Below are positions 33,682 to 63,129 of a DNA stretch of 64,000 nt, piece by piece. Both the position numbers and the translations under genes were made by a program. The notes beneath the pieces were generated by a model that saw only the letters and a program-made list of their open reading frames with translations, was not told the origin of the DNA and made no database searches. Source of the DNA: a virus; the IMG/VR virus record IMGVR_UViG_3300036716_002035, positions 1-64,000 of that record; one strand, written 5' to 3'. The stretch's first letter is position 1; every line of letters starts with the position of its first letter.

Positions 33682-33730
33682 GTATCGTCCACTATTGACT
33701 GGTTTTCGTTTTTATTTTTTTTTCGTTAAC
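33679..33730. repeat. Dispersed repeat, copy A
   Basis: CAT(G/A)TATCGTCCACT, then TGG and CGTTTTTATTTTTTTT, about 45-52 bp in length. Shared with copy B at 39806-39856. It spans the last codons of the Clp ATPase gene and the start of gene 33514-33681. Confidence 0.6.
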
Positions 33731-36136: not shown

Positions 36137-36154
36137 TCTCAATATAAGGTTACA

Positions 36155-46496: not shown

Positions 46497-47486
46497 TTAA
46501 CGAAGTTTGGTCATGACCTGCTTCACGGCCATCCACATGTCTAAATATTTATAAGTAGCCAACCTGCCAAGAAAAATGGTGTTTTTATCTGCTTCTGCTG
46601 CGATCTTGTATTTTGAATATATATGCTTAGCAGATCCAAAATTCTTAGGGTAAATAGCTTCATTGTATTCGTTGTGTTCTTCGGGGAAATCTCTGGTTAA
46701 TACTGTTTCGTCAACCTGTTCGTTTAAATATACGCTACTATCCATTGTGCGATTAAAGGGCTGCTTATTACACTCATTAATGACCGCACCTTTCTCCCAA
46801 GAAAAATCATCACTCTTTTTTGTATAAAAATGCTGAAACCTTAGTGATCGGTATGGCAATTTACCAAATTCTAGATTGAAATATTCGCTAATTTTACCAG
46901 TCCAGATTAACTTATCACACTTTAATTTCCTCCACGCACCCCGCTCAACACCTAGGTTAACTTTTATCCCATCAAGCATGGAGTGAAACATTTCTGTATA
47001 ACCTTTTTCTGGAATGCCTTGATACTTGTCAGTAAAATATCGATCATCAAAGTCATCTCTTTTATTTGGCACTCTTCCTGTTATGGATTTAGGTAAATCT
47101 TCCCACTTGACACCCCAATGTCTCTCCGAATATTCTTTAAAAAGAAGGTCTTGAATTTCCTTAGGAGATAAATCTTCCCCTAATTCTCCTGCCGTTTTTT
47201 TGCTAAAGGGGATAGAAATTAATCCATTTTTTGTATTGGCTCGCACCCTATGGACATAACTATTAAACTTAGTATACCTATTTAAAAATGACCACACATC
47301 CTCATCGTTTGTATGAAAAATATGTGACCCATACTTATGAACAGTTACTCCATTAATCTTTGAGTCATAACAGTTGCCGCCGATATGGTCTCTTAGCTCA
47401 AATATCTCTACTTGATGGCCCTGCTCTTTTAGAAGGATCGCTGCCGTCACTCCAGATAGCCCGCACCCAATTATATTAATTTTCAT
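46497..47486 (-). CDS. glf: UDP-galactopyranose mutase
   Basis: 329 aa. FAD-binding IIGCGLSGVTAAILLKEQGH, GGNCYDSKINGVTVHKYGSH (signature), and ITGRVPNKRDDFDDRYF. It interconverts UDP-Galp and UDP-Galf, supplying galactofuranose for glycans. Slightly shorter than bacterial Glf (~370). Last gene of the glycan cluster; one-base junction with the 612-aa glycosyltransferase. Confidence 0.92.
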   Translation of the reverse strand: MKINIIGCGLSGVTAAILLKEQGHQVEIFELRDHIGGNCYDSKINGVTVHKYGSHIFHTNDEDVWSFLNRYTKFNSYVHRVRANTKNGLISIPFSKKTAGELGEDLSPKEIQDLLFKEYSERHWGVKWEDLPKSITGRVPNKRDDFDDRYFTDKYQGIPEKGYTEMFHSMLDGIKVNLGVERGAWRKLKCDKLIWTGKISEYFNLEFGKLPYRSLRFQHFYTKKSDDFSWEKGAVINECNKQPFNRTMDSSVYLNEQVDETVLTRDFPEEHNEYNEAIYPKNFGSAKHIYSKYKIAAEADKNTIFLGRLATYKYLDMWMAVKQVMTKLR

Positions 47487-49324
47487 TATAGAGACAAAGT
47501 AAAAAGCGTTGCGCCTCCATCCAGCACTAAGGCGCCAGAATCATGGACCTTTAAAAATAAACCACTACTAACTTCTTGTATCTTGTGCTTACCCCCAGCC
47601 TTATGAAGCTTCCATTGGTTACGGGGGGTATCCGTGGTCTTGGCTATGCTGCCTAAATTAGACAACCAAACAGATTTTCTTTCGTCATCAATACATTTGA
47701 TATGATAATTTCCATTATCTAGCTGGATAAACTCCCATAAATGACCCCTAACAGTCCAATAAAAACCACGAGGAGTGATCATTTTTGGAAAGTCCTTGTC
47801 GCAAACTGCTTCCGCGTAGGTAGGGTCGTTTTCATACTTGCCTAAATCTTTTCTAATGATATTGGATATAAAAATTTCATTAGCCCTGTCTTTCATGCTT
47901 ATAAAGTTCCAGCTATCTGGTTCAAATCCATCTTCTTTTTTTCGAAAGAAATATAACACCTGTCCAGCGTCGTCATCCTCCTTGGAGAATAAAAACATTC
48001 CTGGGTCCGACTTCGATTCAATTAAACACGTCCCATCCTGCTGCTCATGTAACTTTACTCCGTTTTTTGTATAATTCTGTTGAAAAAAACGGCTCACATA
48101 AAACGCCATAAACTGAGGGTTTTCTTTGTTGGGGTTAGTTGTTTTTAGGAGCTCTGTGCATGTATAAATATTTGAATCCATATTGAATGCATACTTGTCA
48201 TTGTCTGATCCAGACAATACCGTTCTCAGAAAGAGTACGCCATTCCCCTTTTTGGTTTTGGGATCTTTTCTCTCTTGAACATCATATGTTAGGGTCATGT
48301 ATTTTTTGCTTCGAGCATTTTGAATAACAAAAGAGTTCTCATCAACCCACGATCTATTTATGTATGCATTATTAAACTTAATGGGAGTAGCAGATCCAAA
48401 TGAATTAGTAATTTCTTTATTAATTCTCTCCACATCGTTTTTAAACCAATTTTTTGCAAGATTTTCGTACAACTCGAAGGTTCCCTCGTCTTCCATTACT
48501 GGCTCCTGCACACCGTAGGTATGATGTGCGGTTATAAAATCCCCAATTATCATATTGGGCCTGTCAAGCTCTTGGCCTAATTTAGAACTGGTAATGTACT
48601 CGTCTTGTGCATCAATGTTAATAAAATGCTTCCTATCGGAACCAAGCATGAATATGCAGTTAATTGAGACTCGGGCATTAAAATAAATATTTTCTTTTAA
48701 TTTGTAAGATTCTAGGCTGTTAGGGTTCCTAATGAGGTCTGATATAAATTGCTTATGGCATTTGCATGCGATTTTTGGGTGAGCAAAAAGGGGGCCAGTC
48801 AAACCGCACGGAGGATACATTTCAATCTCCTTGTCGGGGAAATTCCACATGCCTTTCTTTGCCTGATGAAAAGCGGTCATTCCATTGTTGATGCAATTAG
48901 AATGCATTATGATTGGATCTTTATTTTCCCACCTTAACTGTGCGGCGGAACGAAGAGTCTCTACGTCAAGAAAAAGAGTGTCGTCATCAAGCTTTATGAT
49001 GACATCATTGTCTTTAAAGGTGCCCATGAATTTATAAAACGGAGCCCAATAACCAACGCTGTCCATTACTGTTCCATCTTGTATCTGCTTTCCACGCTCT
49101 TCTCTGTTTGAGACAAACACCCTGTCTGGGTAAGTTTTATTCAGTCTCTGGCACTCGCTCCAAATGAAATTATGATCCGATTTGTTTCGGGTCATGTCTA
49201 TCATGTAATACTTATCGATCGACCCGATCCTTAAGCCTTCCTCAATATATTGGTGAAGGATTTTTATATTAGATTCCCTGCCCATAAAGGAGCAAACATT
49301 AATTGTAAATTCTTTATTTTCCAT
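47486..49324 (-). CDS. Glycosyltransferase with C-terminal beta-trefoil-like domain
   Basis: 612 aa from the ATG at 49324. The first ~250 residues contain VIIKLDDDTLFLDVETL, a DDD metal/nucleotide motif of GT-A enzymes, and GMTAFHQAKKG. The last ~150 residues show repeated short beta units ending in LWEFIQLDNGNYHIKC and QWKLHKAGGKHKIQEV, resembling a ricin-type lectin fold. A catalytic domain plus sugar-binding domain is likely. Donor unknown. Confidence 0.7.
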   Translation of the reverse strand: MENKEFTINVCSFMGRESNIKILHQYIEEGLRIGSIDKYYMIDMTRNKSDHNFIWSECQRLNKTYPDRVFVSNREERGKQIQDGTVMDSVGYWAPFYKFMGTFKDNDVIIKLDDDTLFLDVETLRSAAQLRWENKDPIIMHSNCINNGMTAFHQAKKGMWNFPDKEIEMYPPCGLTGPLFAHPKIACKCHKQFISDLIRNPNSLESYKLKENIYFNARVSINCIFMLGSDRKHFINIDAQDEYITSSKLGQELDRPNMIIGDFITAHHTYGVQEPVMEDEGTFELYENLAKNWFKNDVERINKEITNSFGSATPIKFNNAYINRSWVDENSFVIQNARSKKYMTLTYDVQERKDPKTKKGNGVLFLRTVLSGSDNDKYAFNMDSNIYTCTELLKTTNPNKENPQFMAFYVSRFFQQNYTKNGVKLHEQQDGTCLIESKSDPGMFLFSKEDDDAGQVLYFFRKKEDGFEPDSWNFISMKDRANEIFISNIIRKDLGKYENDPTYAEAVCDKDFPKMITPRGFYWTVRGHLWEFIQLDNGNYHIKCIDDERKSVWLSNLGSIAKTTDTPRNQWKLHKAGGKHKIQEVSSGLFLKVHDSGALVLDGGATLFTLSL

Positions 49325-49351
49325 ATCCAAAAATAGATACACAAACAAAGG

Positions 49352-50374
49352 CTACAATTCAATCAAGCCACTTAATAATTTAAACTTTTTTTCTATAACG
49401 CCGTTGATCTGCGAACCTCTAGCACCATCAAACCACCAATCTTTAGATTTGGCATTGGTATTTTTTCTATAATGAACGTTTTGCGAGTTGGAATCATATA
49501 TTGATTTGTTGCATTTTATATTTATAGAATTATTCTTAAAAAACTTACCAATGTTGTCTGCGACATGTTTAAAATCAATGATATTGTCTACGGCTAGATC
49601 TTTCCCGTCATAATAATACCCATAATTTAAGAACCTACACTGGCCCTCCGTGTTTTGATGTTTGACAAATGGCTCCATGCGAATATATATATCTGGATTA
49701 GATAAGTAAGGAAATCTACTGTGAGCTATGCCACTGGGAGGCGTGAAGGCAACCTCTTCTTTGTCAATGTCATATAATTTAAATCCTAATTTTTGATTTT
49801 GTTTTTTATATATTGCCCGTTCTTTTTCTAAGGCGGCAACACCATATGTATCATGATCTGTTAGAGGCAGCTCCTCTGCAGATAATTGTAGCAAAGCCCA
49901 GTCCTCAAAATAAGATCTGATTTCTTCGGGATATAACCCCAGAAGACTTTGGGAAAGCATCTCTTTCATTTCTGGACCCTTTGTTCTGGATCTTAGCTCA
50001 GGTGAGGGCAAAAACAGCCCAGGTTTAATCAGGATAGAATTTAAAAAACAAAACAAAGAAACCATTCTGTCTTTGGGACTTCTCTCGATAGTGAATTTAG
50101 TATAAGAATCCCATATTTCATTACCCACTATTTCTTTAATGATAAACCATGGAAGATGGTTGCCGTACTTCTCTTGATAGGCAAGCGCTGATTTACCTGT
50201 ATCTTCAAAAACCTTGTCTACATTAACTTTAGTATCCTCGTTGACTTCGTTGGAAGGGTCTCCTGCCATTACGTCATCAGAACCTAAATGAGGTTTAATA
50301 AACTTCATAAAGGTTTGCGTTGATGTCTTATGGGTCTTAACAAATATAAATTTATGTTTATGTGATATTATCAT
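49352..50374 (-). CDS. Sulfotransferase-like protein
   Basis: 340 aa. Starts MIISHKHKFIFVKTHKTSTQ (5'-phosphosulfate loop variant) and has FTIERSPKDRMVSLFCF (3'-phosphate segment with Arg and Ser). The N-terminus closely resembles those of the 57672 and 58322 proteins, so it is a paralog with a longer C-terminus. Acceptor unknown. Confidence 0.72.
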   Translation of the reverse strand: MIISHKHKFIFVKTHKTSTQTFMKFIKPHLGSDDVMAGDPSNEVNEDTKVNVDKVFEDTGKSALAYQEKYGNHLPWFIIKEIVGNEIWDSYTKFTIERSPKDRMVSLFCFLNSILIKPGLFLPSPELRSRTKGPEMKEMLSQSLLGLYPEEIRSYFEDWALLQLSAEELPLTDHDTYGVAALEKERAIYKKQNQKLGFKLYDIDKEEVAFTPPSGIAHSRFPYLSNPDIYIRMEPFVKHQNTEGQCRFLNYGYYYDGKDLAVDNIIDFKHVADNIGKFFKNNSINIKCNKSIYDSNSQNVHYRKNTNAKSKDWWFDGARGSQINGVIEKKFKLLSGLIEL

Positions 50375-50419
50375 GTTTAAAATTCGAATTGAATGCCATT
50401 TAAGTCGGCTCGTGAAAAA

Positions 50420-51169
50420 CTATTCATTTATTAAAAATTGATAGTCTTGCTCAAATTTAGATTCTCCTTTTTGCCCTAAATGAGAAACCGAAAGATCTAA
50501 AGTTCTAAGTTTAGAGAAATCTTTATTAATGATATCATCCCTAAACCAAACATCGTTCTGCGCAGCAGAGTGCCACTCGTCATAAAGCACTCTAGCCTCC
50601 TCTGAGGAGGGTTTGTAGAGCTGAAAAAAGCCCCAGCCAGATTTCGGCGTTCCATAAAAAGAAAATCTTTCCATAGATTTGAAGTCCTTAAGCGAGAGGA
50701 AGTCTTTCCTTGAGGACGGGGTATACAAAACATCGGATTCTAAATCATCATCTGTAATCGGCAAACCTTCTGAAAGAACTATGTCGCAATCTAAAATTAA
50801 TTGAAACGCATTAGGAAAATCTTTTGCCCCTCTTTCTTGTCCGATTCTAAGACCTGAACCCTTGTTAAAGGCTTTTGAGTTAGCATTTTCTAAGAACTTA
50901 GGCCAGTATTCTTTGCGGGAATCAGGAGGCTGATTCATCTGGCCATTCTCAAATCTTTTTTGATGAACATCAAACCATCCCATTCCAACTTTAAAATCAT
51001 GATAAAGAACCTCAACATTATTGTATTTTTTACAGACTTCAATTGTTTCTAAATCATCTTCCTTGGTTATGACATAGATGTGTTTAAGTATTGATGAATT
51101 TACTTCTAGGGCTATTTTGAGTAATGCTCCATAATTAACACAAACAGTTATGCCTATAACGTCCACCAT
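50420..51169 (-). CDS. GT2-like glycosyltransferase
   Basis: 249 aa. N-terminal IGITVCVNYGALLKIALEVN and LILDCDIVLSEGLP with a DCD metal motif. Pattern close to the 25876 enzyme. Donor and acceptor unknown. Confidence 0.68.
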   Translation of the reverse strand: MVDVIGITVCVNYGALLKIALEVNSSILKHIYVITKEDDLETIEVCKKYNNVEVLYHDFKVGMGWFDVHQKRFENGQMNQPPDSRKEYWPKFLENANSKAFNKGSGLRIGQERGAKDFPNAFQLILDCDIVLSEGLPITDDDLESDVLYTPSSRKDFLSLKDFKSMERFSFYGTPKSGWGFFQLYKPSSEEARVLYDEWHSAAQNDVWFRDDIINKDFSKLRTLDLSVSHLGQKGESKFEQDYQFLINE

Positions 51170-51172
51170 CTT

Positions 51173-51787
51173 TTAAATACAATAGTTAAAATTTTCAAAT
51201 TCTTTTTTTCTTAAATTATAGACTAAGTTCTTTGTGTTCTTATCTAGCCATTCATCTATATCGATAGATGGTTTTTTATTATTTTCTTTAATGAAAAATG
51301 AATAATGCTTGCACGCTTCCGCTTCTTCCATTAAATTTAACTCTTCTAAGATTTTATTCACTCCGCTTATTCCATCTTCAAATCTAAAAATAAAATCCGC
51401 CCATAAGTTTCCAGATTCATTAAAAATGATATCATGCTGCCTCTTGATTTCTTGCGTTAATGTATTGTTTCCATCGTTAGAATAAATGTGTTTTTTTAAA
51501 TCACTCTTGAATTCTTCTTTTTGATCTTTATTTAAGTTAGATATAGAAGAGGTATTGTGGTGTTTGGATATTCTAAAATACAAAGAAATTGTGTTAACGT
51601 AAGGGTTTCTAACTGTACAAATTTTATAGGATTGATTCCATATTGAACTGTTTTTTAATTTAGATTTCTCATAAGGTAAATGCCTGCAATCAAAAAAGCT
51701 GATAGCATTACGCGCATCAAGCTCTCTGAATATATTGCTTAGGGCGCTACCTGCAGTACGCATGCATCTATTAAGTATAATATTCAC
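51173..51787 (-). CDS. Sulfotransferase-like protein
   Basis: 204 aa. ILNRCMRTAGSALSNIF occupies the phosphosulfate-loop position and CTVRNPYVNTISLYFRI the 3'-phosphate segment. More divergent than the other copies. Confidence 0.66.
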   Translation of the reverse strand: MNIILNRCMRTAGSALSNIFRELDARNAISFFDCRHLPYEKSKLKNSSIWNQSYKICTVRNPYVNTISLYFRISKHHNTSSISNLNKDQKEEFKSDLKKHIYSNDGNNTLTQEIKRQHDIIFNESGNLWADFIFRFEDGISGVNKILEELNLMEEAEACKHYSFFIKENNKKPSIDIDEWLDKNTKNLVYNLRKKEFENFNYCI

Positions 51788-51795
51788 TGGTACAA

Positions 51796-52851
51796 CTATA
51801 GAATATTAACTGTTCTTAGCCAAGACTCTACTCTATGGTGGGGTCGGTGATTTTCCATTACATACTTCTTGCCCGCCTCCCCAATTGCCTTGGCTGCATC
51901 TTGGTTCGTCATGTAGTAATAAACTTTTTCGAGCATATCAATATGATCATCATAAACAATCCAATGCTCTCCATCTACTAAACCCACTGGAGGTAATATC
52001 ATGCGGTTATGAAGAACTAAAGCTCCGCTACTCATAGCTTCCATTAGCCTATAGTCTCCTTCCCAGCCGTCAGGGGTAGCAGTGACAATAATTTTAGTGG
52101 TTGCCATTAACCTGCAATAGTCTTCCTGAGGGGTGCGGCGCCCATCGGTTTGACCCCCTCCAGTTTTACCAACATGCAAATTGTAACCACAACCGTACCA
52201 TTTTTGAGCAGCCTTTAGTGCAGAAGCTATAAGACGCCTAGTTCCACACCAACCCAGGTGCCTTTCAACCATTTCCCTTAATGCCCCACCCCTTTGATAA
52301 TGCATAGGAATATGCTGACTCCAATTATCATCGTTAGACTCAAAGAAGCAACAAACATCCATATCTCTAGGCTTGCCTTTATGTTTCTCAAACTCTTCTA
52401 CAATATCTTCTCTCACACAATAAGGAGAAAAATGCACTACATGGGGAGAGTAGTCTTGCACCCCCAAGGGCTTCCCCCATTTTCTAATCGCCATGTTTCT
52501 TTTGAAATGCCCCAAAACTCGCGCCTTGGGATGATATAATTCGAGCTCGTCCTTGTAATCCATAATAATTGCAGGAACATCAGGGTACTGCTCTCTCCAA
52601 ACAATGGCCTGATCTGGCTGCATGCAGCCGTGCAGTATCATCAAGTCTACATCTTTTGGCCTACCAGCGGTTTGGGGAGCGGCTTTTATGTAGGGGCCAT
52701 CGGGGTTGTCTAGGGTGCGAACTTGATCTGGTAATTTCACTAACTCACACAAGTCGCTATTAGCTATGCCTGGCTGCAATATTTGTGCGTTTTCTTCGGA
52801 GGTGGCTCCTTGCATGGGGGTATAAATTTTTATCTTCTTTTTCATATCCAT
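51796..52851 (-). CDS. GT-B glycosyltransferase (GT4-like)
   Basis: 351 aa. C-terminal half has EGDYRLMEAMSSGALVLHNR, the E-x7-E-type donor site of GT4-like enzymes. It lacks a clear N-terminal Rossmann glycine loop. Overlaps the next gene by 10 bp. Confidence 0.72.
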   Translation of the reverse strand: MDMKKKIKIYTPMQGATSEENAQILQPGIANSDLCELVKLPDQVRTLDNPDGPYIKAAPQTAGRPKDVDLMILHGCMQPDQAIVWREQYPDVPAIIMDYKDELELYHPKARVLGHFKRNMAIRKWGKPLGVQDYSPHVVHFSPYCVREDIVEEFEKHKGKPRDMDVCCFFESNDDNWSQHIPMHYQRGGALREMVERHLGWCGTRRLIASALKAAQKWYGCGYNLHVGKTGGGQTDGRRTPQEDYCRLMATTKIIVTATPDGWEGDYRLMEAMSSGALVLHNRMILPPVGLVDGEHWIVYDDHIDMLEKVYYYMTNQDAAKAIGEAGKKYVMENHRPHHRVESWLRTVNIL

Positions 52852-53657
52852 TTATCTGTTACTCTTCCATCTCTATTTAACCAAGTCTCTCCAATATGAA
52901 GGCAAAACATCTCCTTATCTTCTATATGTACACCATACTCTAAACCTTCTTTGTCTCCATATTTTATAAATTCATAAATATACTCATCGGCGTCTTGAGT
53001 AACTCTATCCCTCCAATTTAAAGATTGTTTCGCTCTATTTTGAAATTTACCTATAAATTTTGAGTCAACAATTTGTGCATTCACGCAATGGAGATCTTGC
53101 GTCCATATAGGCTGGTTATTGTGGTCTCTGTATTCATCTAAGTGATCAAAGTAAAATATCTGCGCGTAACCCAATAGCGTTCTCTCCTTGCCCAATGGCA
53201 ACCTTTTCAGGAAATCATGTTCTTGGTGAGGATTTTTTTGCCATAATAAAAAGTTTTCTTGCTTTTCTATTATATATCTAGCCATACCCATAAGAACTTG
53301 ACGAGTATCAATTCCAATAGAATTTAATTTATCAATATGATGGTTGAATCTGGCGTTGAAATTATTAAAAATAACATCGCTGTCTGTTAGGCATAAAAAT
53401 CCTTGGTAGTTTTCGCCTTCCAAATAAGACATCCCCTCGTTCACAAGCCTACCTTTATTAAAGGCTGCATTGTTGTATTTGATTAAAGAGTCTTCTACAA
53501 CTATACATTTTACAGTTTTATGTTTATCGCAAACTCTTTGGCAGTCAATATCGGACTTAATAGTGACCACTATTATCTCATCAAAAATTAAGGAGTTATA
53601 TGGTAATATATAATCCAAGTAATCGGAATAATTAACTGAAACCAATAAGCTTTTCAT
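52842..53657 (-). CDS. Putative glycosyltransferase
   Basis: 271 aa. GT-A-like pattern FLCLTDSDVIFNNFNARF (DSD) with IIVVTIKSDIDCQRVC before it, and a HIGETWLNRDGRV tail. Related in layout to 25876 and 50420. Confidence 0.66.
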   Translation of the reverse strand: MKSLLVSVNYSDYLDYILPYNSLIFDEIIVVTIKSDIDCQRVCDKHKTVKCIVVEDSLIKYNNAAFNKGRLVNEGMSYLEGENYQGFLCLTDSDVIFNNFNARFNHHIDKLNSIGIDTRQVLMGMARYIIEKQENFLLWQKNPHQEHDFLKRLPLGKERTLLGYAQIFYFDHLDEYRDHNNQPIWTQDLHCVNAQIVDSKFIGKFQNRAKQSLNWRDRVTQDADEYIYEFIKYGDKEGLEYGVHIEDKEMFCLHIGETWLNRDGRVTDKWI

Positions 53658-54340
53658 TGGTTATCAATATGTCTTTTTAATATACTTTTATACTCAGGCT
53701 TGCGTATATTATTCTCATCATAAGTGTCACCTATAAATTCATAATCAATCCGAGGTATTTTTATCGGTATTGTGTCTTTTTGAAAATCTCCAAAAATTGT
53801 CAATTCATTTTTGCATTTAGGATAGATTACGTCCCTCAAGAAAAGCTGGTCAATGCCATAATATCCCCCTTTGTTTTTTGTATATTTCTGGTATTCATTA
53901 CGGTAATTAATGTCGCTCGATTTAAACGCACACATGCCTGCCATTATAGGCCATTTTTGTGTGTGGCCTGGGTGATCTCGGATAGTCATTGCATTAGTAT
54001 TCATTAATAGCCATTTATTTACAGCCCAAGAATCTCTCTTTGAGAGTCTACTATCAGTGTCTCGCGATATATTTACCTCAACATCAGGATCATCAATTGC
54101 ATAAAATCTAGCCCCCGTTATCTGCTTTTCTTTATTTTGTGGTATGGAACATACCTCTATCTCAACATTATGCTTTTTTTTGAGTTTTAATATCACAGGA
54201 TGGGCCTCACAATATGATGCTATATAAAATCGGCAGACCCACCCCTTGAAATACCTGTCTCTTAGTTTTATATTCTCAAGAGCGCCAAAATAGTATTTCG
54301 CCTCATCGCCAAACAAACAAAATGATATAATGCGTTTCAT
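53654..54340 (-). CDS. Putative glycosyltransferase
   Basis: 228 aa. Starts MKRIISFCLFGDEAKYYFGA and has VEVNISRDTDSRLSKRD, a DTD motif consistent with nucleotide-sugar binding. Overlaps both neighbours by 4 bp. Confidence 0.6.
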   Translation of the reverse strand: MKRIISFCLFGDEAKYYFGALENIKLRDRYFKGWVCRFYIASYCEAHPVILKLKKKHNVEIEVCSIPQNKEKQITGARFYAIDDPDVEVNISRDTDSRLSKRDSWAVNKWLLMNTNAMTIRDHPGHTQKWPIMAGMCAFKSSDINYRNEYQKYTKNKGGYYGIDQLFLRDVIYPKCKNELTIFGDFQKDTIPIKIPRIDYEFIGDTYDENNIRKPEYKSILKRHIDNQ

Positions 54341-55008
54341 TTACTTAGTAAAGTTCTTAGTTCATTAATGATATCTGAAATGCCAAGATTAGATCCAAAT
54401 TTTTCGCATTTATGAAATCCTTGTTGATAACTTGCGACATAGTTGCTAGAAGAAACCATGTAAATCAAATCTTTATCAAAGTCTTCGTTTGAAAAATAAT
54501 CAAAACTCCAGCCGTTGTGATTTATTTTGTTATTAATTTTGCTTAAATATAAAAAGCCTGTTTTAACAGCCGAATCAACAAACTTTTGGGGGTACTCGTG
54601 ACCAAAATGATGAGCCGTAACACAAGTAACCTTGTCTATATCGTAGGCGTTTCTCCAGCTGGGAATTTCTTTAACGAGATTTTCATAAAACGATCTGCTA
54701 TTCTCTCTTAGCCAACTCTTTCCGCTGACAAAAACATCTCCAAGTCTAGCGTGAAGCACTAATTCTCTTTTAGCTGCTTTTTTAAAAGAATTAGAATTTA
54801 ATTTTTTTTCAACTATTTCAGCTAAAGTGTCCCAATCCCTAAACTTTTTTTTATTTTTAATATATTGCGTTAGAATTGAGTCTTGGTACTTGCCGCAAGA
54901 TAGTAATCTATCAGCATCGCGAGGGTTACTGCCCCAAAAAAGATCAGATAGCCTATAGATAGAATTATTGTTTAATACTTTTATTTTAAGTATGTCTGCT
55001 TTGTTCAT
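54337..55008 (-). CDS. Fucosyltransferase-like (GT11/GT23-like) protein
   Basis: 223 aa. ELVLHARLGDVFVSGKSWLR resembles the H-x-R-x-GD motif I of alpha-1,2/1,6-fucosyltransferases. SSSNYVASYQQGFHKCEKF fits a second donor region. GDP-mannose dehydratase nearby supports GDP-deoxysugar use. Assignment by motif only. Confidence 0.52.
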   Translation of the reverse strand: MNKADILKIKVLNNNSIYRLSDLFWGSNPRDADRLLSCGKYQDSILTQYIKNKKKFRDWDTLAEIVEKKLNSNSFKKAAKRELVLHARLGDVFVSGKSWLRENSRSFYENLVKEIPSWRNAYDIDKVTCVTAHHFGHEYPQKFVDSAVKTGFLYLSKINNKINHNGWSFDYFSNEDFDKDLIYMVSSSNYVASYQQGFHKCEKFGSNLGISDIINELRTLLSK

Positions 55009-55023
55009 ATATAATCAAATTTT

Positions 55024-55791
55024 TTACCCAACTATTAATCTTACAGGTACGCCTTCCAGGTCCCTAGGCTCAACTTTAATGCTATTATTATTTCTTCTAT
55101 GCCAAATAAATTGGTGTCTAGGATGTAATTCTTTATGTCTTTGCCCCCATTGAGTAGGATCTCCTATAAGCGGAAGATTGTTTTTTTTACAAAGCAAGCT
55201 AAAAATAGATTGATCATGGCGATGATCTTTAAATCCTTTATAATTTTCTTTTTTGCTTGGAGAATCAGTGATTAGCTGTTCTATTTGGGCGTATTTTAAA
55301 TACTCCCTGCAAAAGTTAATAGAAAAATCAGTTTTTCTAAATCCAATAAATGAAGCCATTACCTGTTCGCTTTCAGAGAATTCTTCGTTATCTAAATCGA
55401 GCGCCACAAACAAATCTCTTTTGGTATATTGAAATTCTTTATGGTTTCCAGTAAGAGAAAAAGGACAAACTCCTTGTTCGGAATTTCTGATTTTTTCTAT
55501 TATTGGAGAAAAGTCTTTTATGATATCTGCTCCAGAGTCAGAGTAAAATAAAATATCCTCTTTATTGAGTAACTCTAAATTTTTTAATATAAAATAAGGC
55601 TTCCATAGCCAGTATCCACAACCCTTTTTCTGGTCTAATATAGATTTATTTTTACTATAAAAACTGCCGTCAATAGACTGTGGCGAATACTGGTGGACGG
55701 AGTCAAATCCATGCATCAAAGCAGAAGCAGAATTTCTAACTTGAGAATTTCTGTAGTTTTTATCAGCAAAGTTTATTAATATATTTCTCAT
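55024..55791 (-). CDS. Putative glycosyltransferase
   Basis: 255 aa. KGCGYWLWKPYFILKNLELL and EDILFYSDSGADI resemble bacterial capsule or LPS sugar transferases (conserved Trp/Lys block and SDSGA). Specificity unknown. Confidence 0.58.
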   Translation of the reverse strand: MRNILINFADKNYRNSQVRNSASALMHGFDSVHQYSPQSIDGSFYSKNKSILDQKKGCGYWLWKPYFILKNLELLNKEDILFYSDSGADIIKDFSPIIEKIRNSEQGVCPFSLTGNHKEFQYTKRDLFVALDLDNEEFSESEQVMASFIGFRKTDFSINFCREYLKYAQIEQLITDSPSKKENYKGFKDHRHDQSIFSLLCKKNNLPLIGDPTQWGQRHKELHPRHQFIWHRRNNNSIKVEPRDLEGVPVRLIVG

Positions 55792-55825
55792 TCGTGAAAG
55801 GTGTACTTGATATTTTTATGGCAAA

Positions 55826-56668
55826 TCATTTTTGATTATTTTTTAAAATATTATTTAACTTATATATTTCTGTATCTCCTAGGTCGTGCTCTTCCATAGC
55901 GTCTGAAAGAGCAACGCTTCTACCTCTATGTTTTTGGATTTTGTATTTTTTAGGATGTTGTATTGGGAGTTGTTGAATATCTGTTGACGGGTTAGATAGC
56001 AGCTCCATAGCAAAAAATAAACCGTAAGTCCTTTCTAGAACACCTCCTAGGTGGGGGTGGTGAGTAGGCCAAGGAGGAAGGTTGGCCCAAGGATATATAT
56101 CGTCTACTAAAACCTCAATCCATGACATTAATTTTTCAAATAGATCTTTATGTATAATAAAGGTAGCAAATAAAATTAAAGAGTCTTTAGTTTTGGCGTT
56201 TTTCTTAAGTTCGCCCATAGAGAAAGAAGTGCCAAAAAAGTCATTATAATGATCTACAACATAATCGTAGGGGACCTTATTGAATTCAGGGTCTGTGGTT
56301 AAATCTTTTTTATTAAAATAAAAAATACAAGGATTTTTATTGGTAGATAATCTTTTATTAAACTCATCAAATACATCTCTCTTTATGACTTGATCGTATT
56401 GCCCAAAGCCAATATAATCTAAATCTTTATAGATCTCGTTTTTGTATATATGCCACGCTGCAGAAGTTTCGCTGTAACCTCTCTCCTGAAATCGAGGTTC
56501 GTAAATAGGTAGGTCTTTTTCTTGGATAACATCTTTAGAAATTGTTATTGGGGATTTTTCAATATTTTCATTTACCCCAAAGAATTTGATATTTTCTAGA
56601 GACTCACTATCATAAACCTCTTCGTGAATGGATTTATGATAAACTACAAAAAATTTAATTTTATTCAT
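55826..56668 (-). CDS. Putative polysaccharide glycosyltransferase
   Basis: 280 aa. LDYIGFGQYDQVIKRDVF and LERTYGLFFAMELLSN resemble the YIGLxHYRR and C-terminal helix pattern of DUF4422-type LPS transferases, though weakly. Overlaps the GT10 gene by 4 bp. Confidence 0.5.
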   Translation of the reverse strand: MNKIKFFVVYHKSIHEEVYDSESLENIKFFGVNENIEKSPITISKDVIQEKDLPIYEPRFQERGYSETSAAWHIYKNEIYKDLDYIGFGQYDQVIKRDVFDEFNKRLSTNKNPCIFYFNKKDLTTDPEFNKVPYDYVVDHYNDFFGTSFSMGELKKNAKTKDSLILFATFIIHKDLFEKLMSWIEVLVDDIYPWANLPPWPTHHPHLGGVLERTYGLFFAMELLSNPSTDIQQLPIQHPKKYKIQKHRGRSVALSDAMEEHDLGDTEIYKLNNILKNNQK

Positions 56669-57672
56669 GATGTCATTTTTAATATATCTTTTCTGATTAA
56701 AGAATACACTTGGGAGTCTTTGTTGAAAAAATCATTTAAGGGGGTTTTGAAAAAATTCAGAGATCTCATTTTTTCTATTTCTTGATTGCTTAAAAGCGAA
56801 ATGTATTCTGCGCAATCCTCGATTGAATTGAAGTCTGTAATGTCTATAAAGGAGTCAGGGTTAAAGATTTCTTTGGTCAAAGAATCGCCATAGTAAATTG
56901 GTATTGCGCCCGCCAGAAATGCATTTAATATTTTTTCAGTTACATAACCCTTGCTAATTGTGTTTTCCATAGCTAAAACAAAATCATATTGAGAATATGT
57001 TTTGTAAAGCTCATTATTATACCAACAATCATTTCCAGATCTTAGGTTTGAAGAAGGTTTCAATGTAGAAGGGTAGCTTCCGTGCCTCTCGCCCAAGGCG
57101 TGGCATTTGTTTTCTCCTATTTTTTCTACTAAACAATCAAACATTGATTCTCTGCGGGGACATTTAGTTCTATTCATATAACCCACGGAAAAAGGACGAT
57201 TGTTATTGCAGTGAATTCTTTTTGTTTTCCCCTCCCCTAAGAGCCGTGGGTGCATTGATGCGAAGGGAACGTGATGACATTCTTTCTGGACATCACAAGT
57301 AGTAATTAAAAAATTTCTATCTAAAAATAAATTCCTATTAGAAATGCCATTTATGCAATCAAACCCAAAACCCAAAGGAATGCCTCCCGTACTACCTCTC
57401 GCAGACTCTATAGAGAAACCGTTTCTTTCTGCATCTAAATGAGATCCTACAATATAAGGCTCAAAACCTATTAAAATGGTAGGCTTTAGCAATTTATATT
57501 TTCCATTATCCCTACCAATAACTCGACTTATGCAAGCAGGTTCTTTGTTGACCCTTAAAGAAGTTACGATTATGTCATTATCTTTAAGATAGCTTTGTAT
57601 TTGGTCATCACAAAGAAAAAACTCTTCAACAAAGTCTCTTATGTGGACTGGGAGGGAAGGAGTTTTAAGCAT
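56665..57672 (-). CDS. GT10 alpha-1,3-fucosyltransferase-like protein
   Basis: 335 aa. The donor-binding signature is clear: YDFVLAMENTISKGYVTEKI followed by LNAFLAGAIPIYYGD, as in the GT10 motif FxLAFENS...DYxTEKL. VGYMNRTKCPRRESMF precedes it. These enzymes transfer fucose (or a related GDP-deoxysugar) from GDP-sugar. With GMD at 60985 it points to a deoxysugar-bearing glycan. Confidence 0.85.
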   Translation of the reverse strand: MLKTPSLPVHIRDFVEEFFLCDDQIQSYLKDNDIIVTSLRVNKEPACISRVIGRDNGKYKLLKPTILIGFEPYIVGSHLDAERNGFSIESARGSTGGIPLGFGFDCINGISNRNLFLDRNFLITTCDVQKECHHVPFASMHPRLLGEGKTKRIHCNNNRPFSVGYMNRTKCPRRESMFDCLVEKIGENKCHALGERHGSYPSTLKPSSNLRSGNDCWYNNELYKTYSQYDFVLAMENTISKGYVTEKILNAFLAGAIPIYYGDSLTKEIFNPDSFIDITDFNSIEDCAEYISLLSNQEIEKMRSLNFFKTPLNDFFNKDSQVYSLIRKDILKMTS

Positions 57673-58310
57673 TAGAAATCATATTTAAAATAATCAATGT
57701 CATCCTTAAACCTGTCTGCTACTATATCTATGCATTCTTGATCATAATACTGATCATAAGAACCTCTATCAGATTTATTAAGATGCGGTAGACTTTCTTC
57801 CTTAAGTCCAAGCTTTTTTAATGTTTTAGTGAACTCCACATTTAGAGCATCAAATTTAATTATATGATCAATAATTTTTTCTCCATCGTCATTAATAATG
57901 AATGAAAGTTGAGTATTTAAATGGCCGTCTTTAATCTCTTGCATTCTATACCACGTATCAAAAGCTCTAATTTGATTCATGTCATGATGGTTTCTTGGGG
58001 ATAATTGAACCATTTTTAAAAAATCTTTAAAAGAAACTTGGTCATTTCCCCATGGAGTAGCAATTTGAGTAACCGCCGACCCTTTCTGCCAGCTATATTC
58101 AGAAACCATTCTGTCCCAAGGATTCCTGACTATGGTAAAACTAAAATAAGAGTTCCAAGTTTCATCTCCAACAAACTTCATTATTTGATTAGAGGTGCAA
58201 TGCCACTTAGTGTCATCCACCATGGACCTCTCCAAAAAAAACTTATCAACACTGTGGCCGCCCGTTTTGGGTATATGTATAAAAATAAATTTATGCTTGT
58301 GATTAGTCAT
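57672..58310 (-). CDS. Sulfotransferase family protein
   Basis: 212 aa. Starts MTNHKHKFIFIHIPKTGGHS (PAPS loop) and has FSFTIVRNPWDRMVSEYSW. Tandem paralog of 58322-58873, with which it shares the first ~20 residues nearly identically. Confidence 0.85.
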   Translation of the reverse strand: MTNHKHKFIFIHIPKTGGHSVDKFFLERSMVDDTKWHCTSNQIMKFVGDETWNSYFSFTIVRNPWDRMVSEYSWQKGSAVTQIATPWGNDQVSFKDFLKMVQLSPRNHHDMNQIRAFDTWYRMQEIKDGHLNTQLSFIINDDGEKIIDHIIKFDALNVEFTKTLKKLGLKEESLPHLNKSDRGSYDQYYDQECIDIVADRFKDDIDYFKYDF

Positions 58311-58321
58311 AGACGAGGTTT

Positions 58322-58873
58322 TTATTCTCCAAATCTATACCCAAAGCTTTTAATGTCTTTTGCGTACTTTTTTGCCACAATGTTGCGGGTTTCATCGTCG
58401 TAGTATTCGCTATAATGCCTGTGCTTTGATTTGTTTTTGTGAGGAAGTTCTTGTCGGGGAATTCCAATTTTGTCGCAGACAGTGTTGAAGCCTTCTTGTA
58501 GGTTTTCAGTCTTGCCTATGAAATCATATTCTTTTTTATCAACTATCCATGCTTGGCAATCAAGGGGATCTTTGTTTTTCCAACCAGCACCTTTCCAGTG
58601 CGTTAAAAAACCATTTTTACACCAATCCTTAAACGTTGCACCTCTATAATCCTTACCATTCCAATGGTAATAATACCAGGACACCATACGGTCCCAAGGG
58701 TTTCTGACAAATGTATATTTGTAATAATTGTTTAGATCTATGTGGGGGTTGCATTTTTTATAAAGTTCCATGGTGTCATGCCTGGAGCTCTTCCAATTAA
58801 ATACTGACTCGATACTAAGTCCTCCACACTTTGGTATGTGTATAAAAATAAATTTATGTTTATGATTAATCAT
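58322..58873 (-). CDS. Sulfotransferase family protein
   Basis: 183 aa from the ATG at 58873 (ATGA overlap with the upstream stop). Starts MINHKHKFIFIHIPKCGGLS, then YKYTFVRNPWDRMVSWYYYH. A tandem duplicate of the next gene downstream. Confidence 0.86.
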   Translation of the reverse strand: MINHKHKFIFIHIPKCGGLSIESVFNWKSSRHDTMELYKKCNPHIDLNNYYKYTFVRNPWDRMVSWYYYHWNGKDYRGATFKDWCKNGFLTHWKGAGWKNKDPLDCQAWIVDKKEYDFIGKTENLQEGFNTVCDKIGIPRQELPHKNKSKHRHYSEYYDDETRNIVAKKYAKDIKSFGYRFGE

Positions 58874-59220
58874 TCTTTCCACCTCAATGTTATAATTAAT
58901 GTATCTTCTAAAAACTCAAACTCATGAGGCTCATTAGGTTCAAATAAAACGTAATCACCCTCTTCTCTTAGATACACATTGTCCGTGCCGTTATGAAATG
59001 CTATGCGGATTTCTCCATATATTAGAATTGGAAGAGTCTTAGTGTTAGGGTCGGGTGCGGATTTAGGTGGTCGAGCCTCACCCTTTTTGCCTTTTTGAAA
59101 TTTAAATTCAAAATGCTCCGAGTTGAAATCTGGGTCACCTACAAATGGTCCAATTATCCAATCCTTGTATTGATTGGCGTGGGTCTTAAAGAAATTACCA
59201 TTTCTAACTTTTAGATTCAT
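58870..59220 (-). CDS. Cupin-like protein
   Basis: 116 aa from the ATG at 59220. Short beta-barrel pattern: ILIYGEIRIAFHNGTDNVYL, then EEGDYVLFEPNEPHEFEF with an E-P-H element. Cupins in sugar clusters can be epimerases or isomerases; this one cannot be assigned a reaction. Confidence 0.6.
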   Translation of the reverse strand: MNLKVRNGNFFKTHANQYKDWIIGPFVGDPDFNSEHFEFKFQKGKKGEARPPKSAPDPNTKTLPILIYGEIRIAFHNGTDNVYLREEGDYVLFEPNEPHEFEFLEDTLIITLRWKE

Positions 59221-60052
59221 CTCTATTTGATACGGCTGAAGGTTCAGAAAGCCAATCATGATCTTCTCTAACTCTTAAATTTGTAGTCCAAGCAGACATT
59301 AACATATCTGTAGGTAATGATAAGTCGTGCATTTGATATATCAAAGAATTGATATCTTTAGGAAAGCAAGTTCCGCCAAAACCTCTACTTCCGTCTGGAC
59401 CAGGAACCTTAAAGTGGGATTTGCCAATTCGAGCGTCTGAAATAATCGCGGCCGAAACCGATTCCCAGGAGCCCCCCATTTTGCAAACTAAATCATACAT
59501 CTCATTAAAAAAACTAACTTTTGTGGCTAAAAAACAATTAGCAATGTATTTTGTCATCTCAGACTCATCGCTTGACATTAAAAAGCACGGTGCAGAAGGG
59601 AAGCGTGATCTGTAAAGAGAAACAACCTTCTCGGCCGTGGCAAGAGATCCCGTATGGCCTACTACATTTCTGTCGGGGTTTTCAAAATCATTTTGCGCAT
59701 TAATTGCAGTTAAGAACTCAGGGGAATGTACAAATTTTAAACGAGGATATTCCTTTTGTACTCTCAATGTAAAGCCAATGGGTACTGTGGACTTAATAAT
59801 AAAAATAGAATGTGATCCAATTTCGTTTATTTCGTCAATGCAGTTTTCGATAATAGATAAATCGCACTTGCCTACTTCTGCCGATTTCATAGGGGTGGGG
59901 ACGCATATGAATACAAAATCTTGCTTCAGCACTTCTTCTAAGCTATGCTTTGAAAGCTCTGGCTTTTTATCAAAAGATCTTGTGAAATATCCTTGGAAGC
60001 CATTTTCGACCGCCGAACCCACAAAGCCGAGACCGATTACGCCAATACTCAT
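59204..60052 (-). CDS. UDP-glucose/GDP-mannose dehydrogenase-like, short form
   Basis: 282 aa. NAD-binding IGVIGLGFVGSAVENGF, FICVPTPMKS, IIKSTVPIGFT and FVHSPEFLTAIN, and the catalytic GFGGTCFPKDINSL. The usual C-terminal UDP-sugar-binding domain (~100-150 residues) is missing, as the protein ends about 50 residues after the Cys. It may work as a reduced enzyme or a sugar oxidoreductase of changed specificity. Confidence 0.8.
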   Translation of the reverse strand: MSIGVIGLGFVGSAVENGFQGYFTRSFDKKPELSKHSLEEVLKQDFVFICVPTPMKSAEVGKCDLSIIENCIDEINEIGSHSIFIIKSTVPIGFTLRVQKEYPRLKFVHSPEFLTAINAQNDFENPDRNVVGHTGSLATAEKVVSLYRSRFPSAPCFLMSSDESEMTKYIANCFLATKVSFFNEMYDLVCKMGGSWESVSAAIISDARIGKSHFKVPGPDGSRGFGGTCFPKDINSLIYQMHDLSLPTDMLMSAWTTNLRVREDHDWLSEPSAVSNRDESKS

Positions 60053-60960
60053 CTGGGTTTATTTTGATTTATCCAATCTTCAAATTTAATCTTAGGCTCC
60101 CAAGATAACATTTCTCTTAGCTTGCTATTGTCTGCAAGAGTTATGCGAGCTTCTCCTTCGCGGGCAGGTATATTAACTGAATCTCCACCTATAATTTTTA
60201 CGAGTTCATTAATAGAGTGATTTGTTCCAGTTCCTACGTTAAAAAGTTCTCCTACTACAGACTTATCTTCGCTAAGCGCAGCAAGAATATTCGCATTTAC
60301 TATATCAGAAACATGGGTATAATCTCTCCTTTGCTCGCCATCCCCAACAATAGTCATTGGCTTGCCAGCTTTCTTTTGTTTAAAAAAATAACCAACTACT
60401 GGAGCATATTGGCCTTTGGTAGGGCTGCGATCTCCGTAGACATTAAAATATCTAAAGCAAACAGTCTCTAAACCAAAAAGCTTTGTATACATCCTGCATA
60501 CCTCTTCGCCTCCAACTTTGCCGACCGAATAAGGATTGAGGCAGTCCGTGGGCATTGTCTCTTTTAGGGGAGGCTCATTTTTTAAACCATACGCCGCCGA
60601 AGTAGAAGAATACATAACTCTTTTTACTCCCATTTCTCTAGCAGCCTGTAAAACATTTGCCGTACCAACTACATTAACCTCTATCGCATATCTAGGGTCA
60701 ATAATAGAAGGTTGAATGCGAGACTCCGCCGCAAAATGCAAAACATAATCAACCCCTTCCATGAGAGGCTCAAGGCGGTCGTAGTCGATAATATTGACTT
60801 TGTGATTCTCGGCCTCATCCCTCCAAAAGAAATTGTCATTCTCCGCCGCGCACTCATTATCAACCACAACTACATCGTGGCCCATATCTAATAATGTATC
60901 AACCGCATGGCTTCCAATGAAGCCTGCACCGCCAGTAACTAAAAATTTTTTCTTTGCCAT
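60049..60960 (-). CDS. NAD-dependent sugar-nucleotide epimerase/dehydratase
   Basis: 303 aa, extended SDR. FLVTGGAGFIGSHAVDTLLD, catalytic YSSTSAAYGLK and YSVGKVGGEE (YxxxK), FRYFNVYGDRS, RRDYTHVSD. Closest to GalE/UDP-glucuronate 4-epimerase type. Reaction not certain. Overlaps the dehydrogenase by 4 bp, suggesting successive steps. Confidence 0.85.
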   Translation of the reverse strand: MAKKKFLVTGGAGFIGSHAVDTLLDMGHDVVVVDNECAAENDNFFWRDEAENHKVNIIDYDRLEPLMEGVDYVLHFAAESRIQPSIIDPRYAIEVNVVGTANVLQAAREMGVKRVMYSSTSAAYGLKNEPPLKETMPTDCLNPYSVGKVGGEEVCRMYTKLFGLETVCFRYFNVYGDRSPTKGQYAPVVGYFFKQKKAGKPMTIVGDGEQRRDYTHVSDIVNANILAALSEDKSVVGELFNVGTGTNHSINELVKIIGGDSVNIPAREGEARITLADNSKLREMLSWEPKIKFEDWINQNKPR

Positions 60961-60984
60961 GTATTTTTATACACAGCAAATAGG

Positions 60985-62073
60985 TTAAGGTACTATTTGT
61001 TTATTCAGTAACATGTAATCATTGTCATACATCTTTTTGACCAATTGGTTGAAGTTGGAAGACCTTCTCCAGCCCAGTTCTTTTTCTGCCAGAGATGGAT
61101 CTCCCAAAAGTTTATGAACTTCTGCTGGTCTATAAAACTCTGGATTTATTCCGACTATTAAAGGTCGCGGAACTTCCTCGCCGTTAATGCTTAGAGCATA
61201 ATACTTCTCGTCCTGGCCTGAACCCTCCCTTATGAATTCTATTTGTGCAACAAAAAGGCATCTCTCTACAAACTCTCTAACCGAATGCATTTCGCCACTC
61301 GCAAGAACATAATTCTTGGGCTTGACTGCATTAAGCATCGCCCATACTCCCGACATAAAATCTTCTGCATCACTCCAATCCCTTAAGGCATCTAAATTGC
61401 CCAATTCTAAAACGGGAAAAGGGTGGCGCGCGGCAGAAGGCCTGCGAAAGGAATTCTCAATACATAATTTTATTTGAGCAACGCCATGAGAGATTTTTCT
61501 GGTTACGAAATCTAAGCCTCTCCTTGTCCCTTCGTGGTTAAATAGCCAACCTTGAATAGCGAAAAGGCCATAACTTTCTCTATAAACCCTAACTAAATGT
61601 CTTGCCCCACACTTCGCAGCCGCATAAGGAGACTGAGGCCTTAAAGGATGCTTCTCGTCTTGAGGAGAATAAGCGACATCCCCAAACTCTTCACTGCTTC
61701 CAGCATTATAAAACCTACACTTGGGAGCAAACCTCCTAATTGATTCTAATATATGCAAAACTGCGTTAGCGTCGGTATCGAACGTCTGTGTCGGGTATTT
61801 CCAACTCCCCGCAACGAAGCTTTGCGCCGCAAAATTAATAAAATAATCGGGTTGAACGCTAATAATTACATCTCTAATACTATGGGCGTCATTTAAATCC
61901 ATGTCGATAATATGAACCCTGGGATTGTTCTTGAGGTGCAATATGTTTTCGTGGTTCTTTACGCTGAGACGACGAATTGTTCCGTAGATTTCGTGGCTTG
62001 TGTTTTCAAGGAGATAGTCAACCATGTGGCTGCCGTCTTGACCTGTTATCCCTGTTACTATAATTTTTTTCAT
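60985..62073 (-). CDS. gmd: GDP-mannose 4,6-dehydratase
   Basis: 362 aa from the ATG at 62073. IIVTGITGQDGSHMVDYLLE, TIRRLSV, VHIIDMDLND, AAQSFVAGSW, AGSSEEFGDV, YAAAKCGA and LFNHEGTRRG match GMD closely. It makes GDP-4-keto-6-deoxymannose, precursor of GDP-fucose, rhamnose and related sugars. No clear GDP-fucose synthase accompanies it here. Starts 4 bp after the RNR stop. Confidence 0.93.
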   Translation of the reverse strand: MKKIIVTGITGQDGSHMVDYLLENTSHEIYGTIRRLSVKNHENILHLKNNPRVHIIDMDLNDAHSIRDVIISVQPDYFINFAAQSFVAGSWKYPTQTFDTDANAVLHILESIRRFAPKCRFYNAGSSEEFGDVAYSPQDEKHPLRPQSPYAAAKCGARHLVRVYRESYGLFAIQGWLFNHEGTRRGLDFVTRKISHGVAQIKLCIENSFRRPSAARHPFPVLELGNLDALRDWSDAEDFMSGVWAMLNAVKPKNYVLASGEMHSVREFVERCLFVAQIEFIREGSGQDEKYYALSINGEEVPRPLIVGINPEFYRPAEVHKLLGDPSLAEKELGWRRSSNFNQLVKKMYDNDYMLLNKQIVP

Positions 62074-62077: not shown

Positions 62078-63094
62078 TTAAAAATCGTCTTCCAATGAAC
62101 CGCTTTGTTGGTACTCTCTAACCCTGCGCTCAAAAAAATTAGTCATTGCTTGGGTGTCAACAACTTCACTTAGCCATGGAAATGGATTTGTATCAGATGG
62201 AAATCTATAGTCCAAGCCGATAGATTCTAGCCTTCTGTTTCCAATATAATGCATGTAATCTACAAACATATCTGCATTCAAACCTAGAATACCTGTAGGA
62301 AGAACATCTTTTGCATATGAAATTTCCAGCTCAACAGTCTTTTTCATGTGCTCGACAAATTCTTGCTGTATTTCTTCCGTCCAAATCTCAGGATTTTGTT
62401 CGGTAATGGTGTTAATTAAATAAATCCCAAACTTAATATGAATACTCTCATCCCTAAGAGTATATTTAATTTGGTCTGAAATTCCTTGAAGCTTATTTTG
62501 TCTACCTAATGCAAGTAGCATTGCAAAGCCAGAGAAGAAAAACGTACCTTCGCACACTACATAATAAGTAAAAAGATTCTTTAAGAACTCTTTCTTCCCG
62601 CCCTCGTTATCTGTAGAAAAATCATTACGAGTAAGGTCAGTAGTGATTTCCATCAAGAAATCATCTTTTGCTTTGATTGATGGGATGGTTTCATACGCAC
62701 GGAAAACTTCATCTATATCTAGACTGAGGCTATCGCAAATATAAACTACAGTAAGGTTGTGCAAGCTCTCTTCAAAAGCTTGGCGCAAAATATATTGGCG
62801 ACATTCTGGATCTGTTACGTATTTAAAAGCAGAAAGCAATAAATTATTTCCAACCAATGATTCGCTTCCAGCAAAAAAACCTAAACATCTTTTAACTAAA
62901 AGCTTTTCATCATCAGAAATTGTTCCGTTTTTCCACTGGTTGATATCTTCCTGCATTGAAATTTCTGTAGGCATCCAATTATTCGCGCACCCTTTCAGAA
63001 ACAGGTCCCATGCGAATTTATGTTTATGAGGGAGTATTCGGTTGACTCCAGCAATATCCTGACTAATTAAATTTCCTGTTTTTTCTTTACTCAT
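62078..63094 (-). CDS. nrdB: Ribonucleotide reductase beta subunit, class I
   Basis: 338 aa from the ATG at 63094. The diiron-type ligands are present: E78 (SESL), E109 and H112 (EESLH), CEGTFFFSG and RDESIH. The residue four after H112, which carries the radical Tyr in class Ia enzymes, is Val116. That points to a tyrosine-less (class Ic-like) cofactor. A large subunit is not in the window. It supplies dNDPs for replication. Confidence 0.9.
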   Translation of the reverse strand: MSKEKTGNLISQDIAGVNRILPHKHKFAWDLFLKGCANNWMPTEISMQEDINQWKNGTISDDEKLLVKRCLGFFAGSESLVGNNLLLSAFKYVTDPECRQYILRQAFEESLHNLTVVYICDSLSLDIDEVFRAYETIPSIKAKDDFLMEITTDLTRNDFSTDNEGGKKEFLKNLFTYYVVCEGTFFFSGFAMLLALGRQNKLQGISDQIKYTLRDESIHIKFGIYLINTITEQNPEIWTEEIQQEFVEHMKKTVELEISYAKDVLPTGILGLNADMFVDYMHYIGNRRLESIGLDYRFPSDTNPFPWLSEVVDTQAMTNFFERRVREYQQSGSLEDDF

Positions 63095-63100
63095 TTCAAT

Positions 63101-63129
63101 AGGATACAAAAAACCCAGGCCTAAGTCAA
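63101..63129 (-). promoter_or_regulatory. Leaderless-type promoter of nrdB and the glycan cluster
   Basis: TTGACT (63124-63129), 17-bp spacer, TATCCT (63101-63106), 6 bases, ATG at 63094. No other clear promoter is seen before 46497, so one transcript may run through the whole cluster. Confidence 0.78.

Follow-up and report, generated by a model that had tools for sequence, protein, structure and literature searches.

A variable, sulfotransferase-rich island of predicted glycan genes in an uncultured tailed-phage-like genome

Introduction

The uncultured virus record IMGVR_UViG_3300036716_002035 of IMG/VR (71,609 bp) carries an island of 18 genes whose enzyme families point to the assembly of a sulfated glycan. 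The window analyzed here comprises bases 1-64000 of the record, and record positions 63000-71609 (L001) were added for the analysis. The island is formed by 18 co-directional open reading frames (ORFs) on the minus strand, from the gene of a UDP-galactopyranose mutase (Glf; 46497) to that of a GDP-mannose 4,6-dehydratase (GMD; ATG at 62073). All 18 reading frames are intact and lie close together, the distance from one to the next ranging from -56 to +45 bp. They encode four sulfotransferases, six supported or probable glycosyltransferases, Glf, a GalE-like epimerase, a UGD-like dehydrogenase, GMD, a cupin-like protein and three proteins without a clear family. We give about even chances to the reading that these enzymes form a cytoplasmic line for the synthesis of a sulfated glycan, with virion proteins as its most likely target. 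Phage glycan islands are already known, while the sulfotransferase-rich, swappable form described here is new.

An original prediction, made from the DNA letters alone, had described about 18 consecutive co-directional genes at 46497-62073 as a sulfated-glycan programme. The ORF map, strand and gene spacing agree with the described run of genes, and the programme itself has good support from the genes present, from their clustering and from their recurrence in relatives. Pfam, PHROG and fold matches likewise confirm the enzymes that it listed, namely Glf, GMD, a short UGD-like protein and glycosyltransferases of several folds including GT10. A clustered, swappable island beside candidate acceptors makes the role of phage sulfotransferases testable, in the form of the question whether some large phages build sulfated coats of their own. 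An affirmative answer would matter for adsorption, host range, grazing, aggregation and the stability of virions.

A Glycan Island Within a Conserved Frame

Nearly all genes of the record are on the minus strand. The island is bounded at its downstream edge by a RecA-like gene (45014-46162, minus strand; PF00154, 1e-16) and a small gene (46101-46454), and on its upstream side by nrdB (62078-63109, minus strand; PF00268, 5e-80). One contig, G001, is 99.985% identical to this record over 20.5 kb. The nearest different relative is a 28 kb contig, G031 (IMGVR_UViG_3300046532_005078). It shares the frame genes, with identities of 81% for the RecA-like protein, 87% for NrdB, 78% for a ClpP-like protein, 76% for the small gene and 65% for a coiled-coil membrane protein, and only three groups of island homologs, which are 21-41% identical. 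G031 has an island of its own, which is also filled with glycosyltransferase and sulfotransferase genes (GT2, GT10 and Sulfotransfer_2). It differs from the present one in lying on the opposite side of nrdB, in carrying two GT47 genes, GT8, GT25, an FkbM methyltransferase and Sulfotransfer_3, and in having no gmd or Glf. In a third relative (L086) the gene content beside nrdB differs again. By these comparisons, the glycan genes are swapped while the frame genes are retained, and the locus is a variable glycan island. Such fast turnover between relatives is as expected of an outward-facing trait.

Clustering statistics were drawn from 50 uncultured contigs collected through gmd and nrdB. PF03567 is found in 33 of these contigs (1-11 copies each) and PF00535 in 43. 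The sulfotransferases are clustered, since 85 of 116 have another one within 5 kb, while 36 are expected. GT2 genes were found within 5 kb of sulfotransferases in 25 of 75 cases, as compared with 16 expected (p 0.018); the p value is 0.049 at 3 kb and 0.12 at 10 kb. In contrast to the frequency of the family in these contigs, near relatives of the island sulfotransferase at 58322 are almost absent from deposited phages, and tblastn recovered them in 3 of 50,697, one of which is LR756508.

The Sulfotransferases

All four sulfotransferases that had been predicted in the island, at 49352, 51173, 57672 and 58322, are upheld by Pfam matches and the convergence of iterated profiles. ST212 (57672-58310; PF03567, 2e-13; PHROG 3347, 4e-22) and ST186 (58322-58882; PF03567, 3e-18; PHROG 3347, 1.5e-22) have direct matches. 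ST340 (49352-50374) scores 17 bits with Sulfotransfer_2, below the 22-bit cut-off, and ST204 (51173-51787) has no Pfam match and contains an RNP...S motif; iterated profiles join both to the common family. The original prediction had also placed a fifth sulfotransferase and a further GT2 at 25876-27698, outside the island, and both were recovered, as ST214 (27060-27704; PF03567, 1.8e-12) and a GT2-like gene (25876-26631). These five sulfotransferase genes are all on the minus strand. Iterated profile searches that start from any one of the five reach one shared set of about 120 ORFs in related contigs. In the alignment the R..P.....S residues of the 3'-phosphate motif RxPxxxxxS are invariant in all five, and the 5'-phosphosulfate loop is present, in atypical form in 51173. 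We assign all five to one Sulfotransfer_2-type family, predicted to depend on 3'-phosphoadenosine-5'-phosphosulfate (PAPS). Sulfotransfer_1 (PF00685) was rejected as the family, as it has no match anywhere in the record. A sulfotransferase search of cellular genomes returned a broad spread (Flavobacteriaceae, Planctomycetes, Verrucomicrobia, Gammaproteobacteria and roseobacters), from which no host can be inferred.

An adenosine-5'-phosphosulfate (APS) kinase was not found in the record, so PAPS would be supplied by the host. Phage-made PAPS was considered on account of APS-kinase matches in 16 of the 50 contigs and was rejected. These matches belong to a kinase-nucleotidyltransferase fusion that is not in this record and that occurs in sulfotransferase carriers and non-carriers alike. 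The fusion (about 275 aa; G007:50455-51279, or L172:10455-11279, and 15 other contigs) joins an APS-kinase-like part to a C-terminal nucleotidyltransferase resembling NMN adenylyltransferase, and might act as a small enzyme of PAPS or NAD metabolism.

Donor Enzymes and Glycosyltransferases

Pfam families above cut-off in the island are GLF, Glyco_trans_1_2, GT10, Sulfotransfer_2 (twice), UDPG_MGDP_dh, Epimerase and GDP_Man_Dehyd. The genes described in this section are all on the minus strand. Glf (46497-47486; GLF, 7e-48) is short, with 329 aa. It scores 252 bits with TIGR00031 (cut-off 304) in two stretches between which about 35 residues are absent, and relatives of 334 aa are present in other phage contigs. 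The UDP-glucose/GDP-mannose dehydrogenase-like (UGD-like) protein (59204-60052) contains the N-terminal NAD domain and the central domain (PF03721 and PF00984) with the motif GGTCFPKD, and lacks the C-terminal UDP-binding domain (PF03720). Since relatives of similar length (about 280 aa) recur in more than 30 loci, it is a conserved phage form, and its putative activity is uncertain. Compared with their cellular counterparts, the UGD-like and Glf proteins of phages are shorter throughout, and the short forms are kept across other phage contigs. The GalE-like UDP-sugar 4-epimerase (60049-60960) has TIGR01179 as its best NCBIfam match, below cut-off, and the UDP-glucose 4-epimerase 4zrm as its best PDB match (6e-50). 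It could feed Glf. A role for it as GDP-fucose synthase was ruled out, because both searches identify it as GalE-like. GMD (60985-62073; PF16363, 5e-99) scores 291 bits with TIGR01472, below the 415-bit cut-off; its ORF opens with a TTG at 62133, and the ATG at 62073 is the likely start. The cupin-like protein (58870-59259; Cupin_2, 0.002, below cut-off) has relatives in contigs G033 and L129.

A fucose-containing glycan had been predicted as one option. GMD and GT10 are indeed present, but a GDP-fucose synthase gene (fcl) was not found in the 71.6-kb record, in which the GalE-like protein is the only companion of gmd in the cassette from the short-chain dehydrogenase/reductase superfamily. 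Fucose would thus depend on the host or on an unsequenced stretch of the phage genome; the alternative is a different GDP-deoxysugar.

The glycosyltransferases can be assigned with differing firmness. Pfam matches establish the assignment for a Glyco_trans_1_2 protein of GT-B type (51796-52851; PF13524, 5e-17) and for a GT10 fucosyltransferase-like protein (56665-57672; PF00852, 7e-19, residues 219-299). The latter contains the C-terminal nucleotide-binding domain of PF00852 and has relatives in other glycan islands. The protein at 47486-49348 is, by strong indications, a glycosyltransferase (PHROG 4447, 1.9e-7, residues 17-283) with a lectin-like tail, a C-terminal beta-trefoil (ricin-B-like) region (RicinB_lectin_2, 1.4e-4, below cut-off). 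It has two tandem relatives in G033 and no match among the 50,697 deposited phages. The structural model makes an equally strong case for a glycosyltransferase of GT-A fold at 53654-54340, a member of a ten-sequence family with a conserved R-D-[CT]-D-S-R motif. Its AlphaFold2 model (pLDDT 83) was matched by Foldseek to glycogenin, GTB and the PBCV-1 capsid glycosyltransferase (E about 1e-5, TM about 0.5). The proteins at 50420-51169, 52842-53657 and 25876-26631 (PF13704, 0.002, below cut-off) probably form one GT2-like family, with an invariant DxD in their alignment (A5).

For three further proteins, at 54337, 55024 and 55826, family searches gave no meaningful match even at E=10. The first (54337-55008) is possibly an enzyme of the fucosyltransferase superfamily, with HxRxGD invariant in three phage sequences; its AlphaFold2 model has a pLDDT of 59, too low to call, and weak fold matches of which some are GT-B. 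The second (55024-55791) is a possible glycosyltransferase with an HRHDQS motif and relatives in four other sulfotransferase-bearing contigs. The third (55826-56668) is an orphan, seen among related contigs only in this virus. PDB profile and sequence searches with 55024, the GT2-like family and the lectin-tailed protein gave no match. The structure-based classification of transferases that the original prediction had proposed was obtained in part: it placed 53654 in GT-A, while the model of 54337 is too weak and 55024 has no structural match.

Candidate Acceptors and a Possible Assembly Route

The original prediction had also called for a search of the full genome for acceptor repeats, and candidate repeats were found. 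On the same strand, 2-9 kb upstream of the island and just outside the window (record 64635-71.6k), lie the candidate acceptors. At record 64635-68320 are proteins with regions like carbohydrate-binding module (CBM) families 5/12, which carry Thr/Ser/Pro linkers and tails. These linkers and tails rest on Thr-rich tandem repeats of 21 nt, which are heptads at the protein level. The small CBM protein among them matches CBM_5_12 at 0.0064, below cut-off. Thr/Ser/Pro repeats are classic substrates of O-glycosylation. The near-identical contig G001 extends this region with a repeat-rich fiber-like protein that ends in repeats of the (TSTPTST)n type and with a second protein that has (STTAQAT)n. Upstream of the Thr/Ser/Pro proteins there is one more fiber-like protein (L167:1-2162), with tandem repeats of 93 nt and 435 nt (TGTGC...SGHCSTGNLSD).

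From these parts an assembly route may be proposed. GalE-like, Glf and UGD-like enzymes would provide UDP-Gal, UDP-Galf and perhaps UDP-GlcA, and GMD would make GDP-4-keto-6-deoxymannose, to be finished by a reductase of the host or one of the phage that is unseen. Six to nine soluble glycosyltransferases, GT10 included, would then extend the acceptor sugar by sugar, and four or five sulfotransferases would transfer sulfate onto the chain from host PAPS. The acceptors would most likely be virion surface proteins, the best candidates being the Thr/Ser/Pro heptad-repeat and CBM-bearing proteins upstream of the island. The outcome might be a mucin-like coat with negative charge, through which adsorption, shielding or the stability of the particle would be altered.

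Several points weigh against such a coat. Neither an APS kinase nor fcl is encoded in the record, many sulfotransferase-rich contigs are without Thr/Ser/Pro proteins, and the nearest relative, G031, shows no such protein within 28 kb. Among sulfotransferase carriers, 5 of 16 contigs have at least one Thr/Ser/Pro ORF, as against 3 of 17 non-carriers, which is no significant difference (p 0.31). Thr/Pro linkers may also serve simply as spacers, and the repeat proteins are themselves putative virion proteins. In favor of the coat, when at least two Thr/Ser/Pro ORFs are counted, the numbers are 5 of 16 carriers and 0 of 17 non-carriers (one-sided p 0.018, post hoc), or 4 of 14 and 0 of 17 if this lineage is excluded (p 0.032, post hoc). 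The association across contigs is weak and at most suggestive. A wider proposition is that some large uncultured phages possess a phage-made sulfated mucin, for which a swappable island of 10-20 enzymes adds O-glycans and sulfate to repeat-rich fibers; we hold this tentatively, and would sooner doubt it than not. We are just as hesitant about the further thought that this mucin is the phage counterpart of proteoglycans, with a chemistry exchanged among relatives like a serotype.

Alternative Explanations

The original prediction had left it open whether the virion or the host surface receives the glycan. On the second option, the O-antigen or capsule would be rebuilt or sulfated during infection, which would block superinfection or the premature adsorption of progeny to debris. 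Loci for O-antigen and capsule typically contain sets of GMD, GalE, Glf and glycosyltransferases, and an island resembling the present one, with gmd, a fucosyltransferase and a phosphoheptose isomerase, is carried by the cultured cyanophage S-SKS1. Marine bacteria are reported to have sulfated capsules, with sulfotransferase genes within the locus. However, no flippase, polymerase, ligase, initiating lipid-carrier transferase (phosphoglycosyltransferase) or transporter was recognized by family among the 18 genes of the cassette, and hydropathy revealed no polytopic membrane protein, so that host-surface remodeling would have to borrow the entire export route of the host. Such genes could also lie outside the cassette or in the host. 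The lack of a flippase, polymerase, lipid-carrier transferase and polytopic protein favors a cytoplasmic target, such as a virion protein, over a surface polysaccharide made de novo. Together with the adjacent Thr/Ser/Pro repeats, it makes the evidence lean toward the virion without being decisive, and we regard host-surface remodeling as a possible but less probable account.

The rapid turnover might also mean that the island is a neutral or selfish reservoir, in which glycan genes acquired by recombination are held transiently and make no single product. The uneven GC of its genes (0.29-0.45), the orphan at 55826 and the truncated UGD and Glf would fit this. Yet every one of the frames is intact and closely spaced, the near-identical contig shares the sequence, sulfotransferase-bearing islands recur in many contigs, and phages in general conserve UGD and Glf in short form; a reservoir is, in our judgment, improbable. 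Phage glycosyltransferases often act on DNA (PMC12619734), and a dNMP kinase-like gene is present at 21352, which brings up the idea that the transferases put sugars on modified bases of the phage DNA. We consider this very improbable: no base-hydroxymethylase or other base-modifying synthase was recognized among the genes examined, no role on DNA is known for sulfotransferases, Glf or GT10, and the number and variety of transferases exceed the needs of known hypermodifications.

Comparison With Known Phage Systems

A similar island is in LR756508, an uncultured huge phage of 484 kb that belongs to another lineage. At about 306-324 kb it has an unannotated co-directional island in which three consecutive sulfotransferases belong to the family described above, accompanied by GT10, gmd and more glycosyltransferases. 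Unlike the present island, it has its own fcl, NeuB and GT25, and no Glf or UGD was seen in the 25 kb examined. A cytidylyltransferase is also present among these genes (LR756508.1:300000-325000; L410). The island of S-SKS1 (NC_020851, 34-48.5 kb) is likewise co-directional, is compact, and contains gmd-type and epimerase genes, GT10 and 55024-like proteins. It differs in its cyanophage backbone, in having its own phosphoheptose isomerase and transaldolase, and in that no sulfotransferase was found in the 26 kb examined. The features of an S-SKS1-type island are found here as well, namely contiguous co-directional nucleotide-sugar and glycosyltransferase genes whose content varies, in this lineage, within a kept neighborhood.

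Freeman et al. (2023, cited in PMC12619734) are reported to have found that phage-encoded glycosyltransferases modify virion proteins of mycobacteriophages. Those phages reportedly have far fewer transferases than the island described here and, to our knowledge, no sulfotransferases. Their acceptors are virion proteins, whereas a virion acceptor is here only presumed. Isolated phage-borne sulfotransferases are known, as in OM43-type phages, S-SRM01 and Stenotrophomonas phage DLP_6, in the last of which the gene is annotated as such. These differ in that the OM43 enzyme is a Sulfotransfer_3, that of DLP_6 is a lone gene among replication genes, and there is no many-gene island. Sulfotransferase function in phages remains unclear (PMC10580990), and no paper on phage sulfotransferase islands was found in the open-access literature. 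Moraphages have four core glycosyltransferase groups (PMC12619734).

Genome Context

The record is a fragment of a tailed-phage-like genome, with DNA polymerase III alpha, a DnaB-type helicase, a primase-like protein, a RecA-like recombinase, a ClpB-like ATPase, NrdB and a ClpP-like protein. A RecA search for cultured relatives or a host gave distant matches only. Co-transcription of the island with nrdB had been suggested. It is plausible, as the ATG of GMD sits 4 bp past the nrdB stop, but promoter-like matches in the sequence are no commoner than in shuffles. Both a ClpB-like unfoldase (33692-36142) and the ClpP-like protease (63563-64000, continuing to 64258) are encoded. A few plus-strand ORFs (31513-32642, 39452-39799), which look structural or secreted, are within the otherwise minus-strand replication region. 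The membrane-anchored coiled-coil protein of the frame (record 69075-70280; L001:6076-7281) is near nrdB in 25 loci and has a relative in Pelagibacter phage Mosig.

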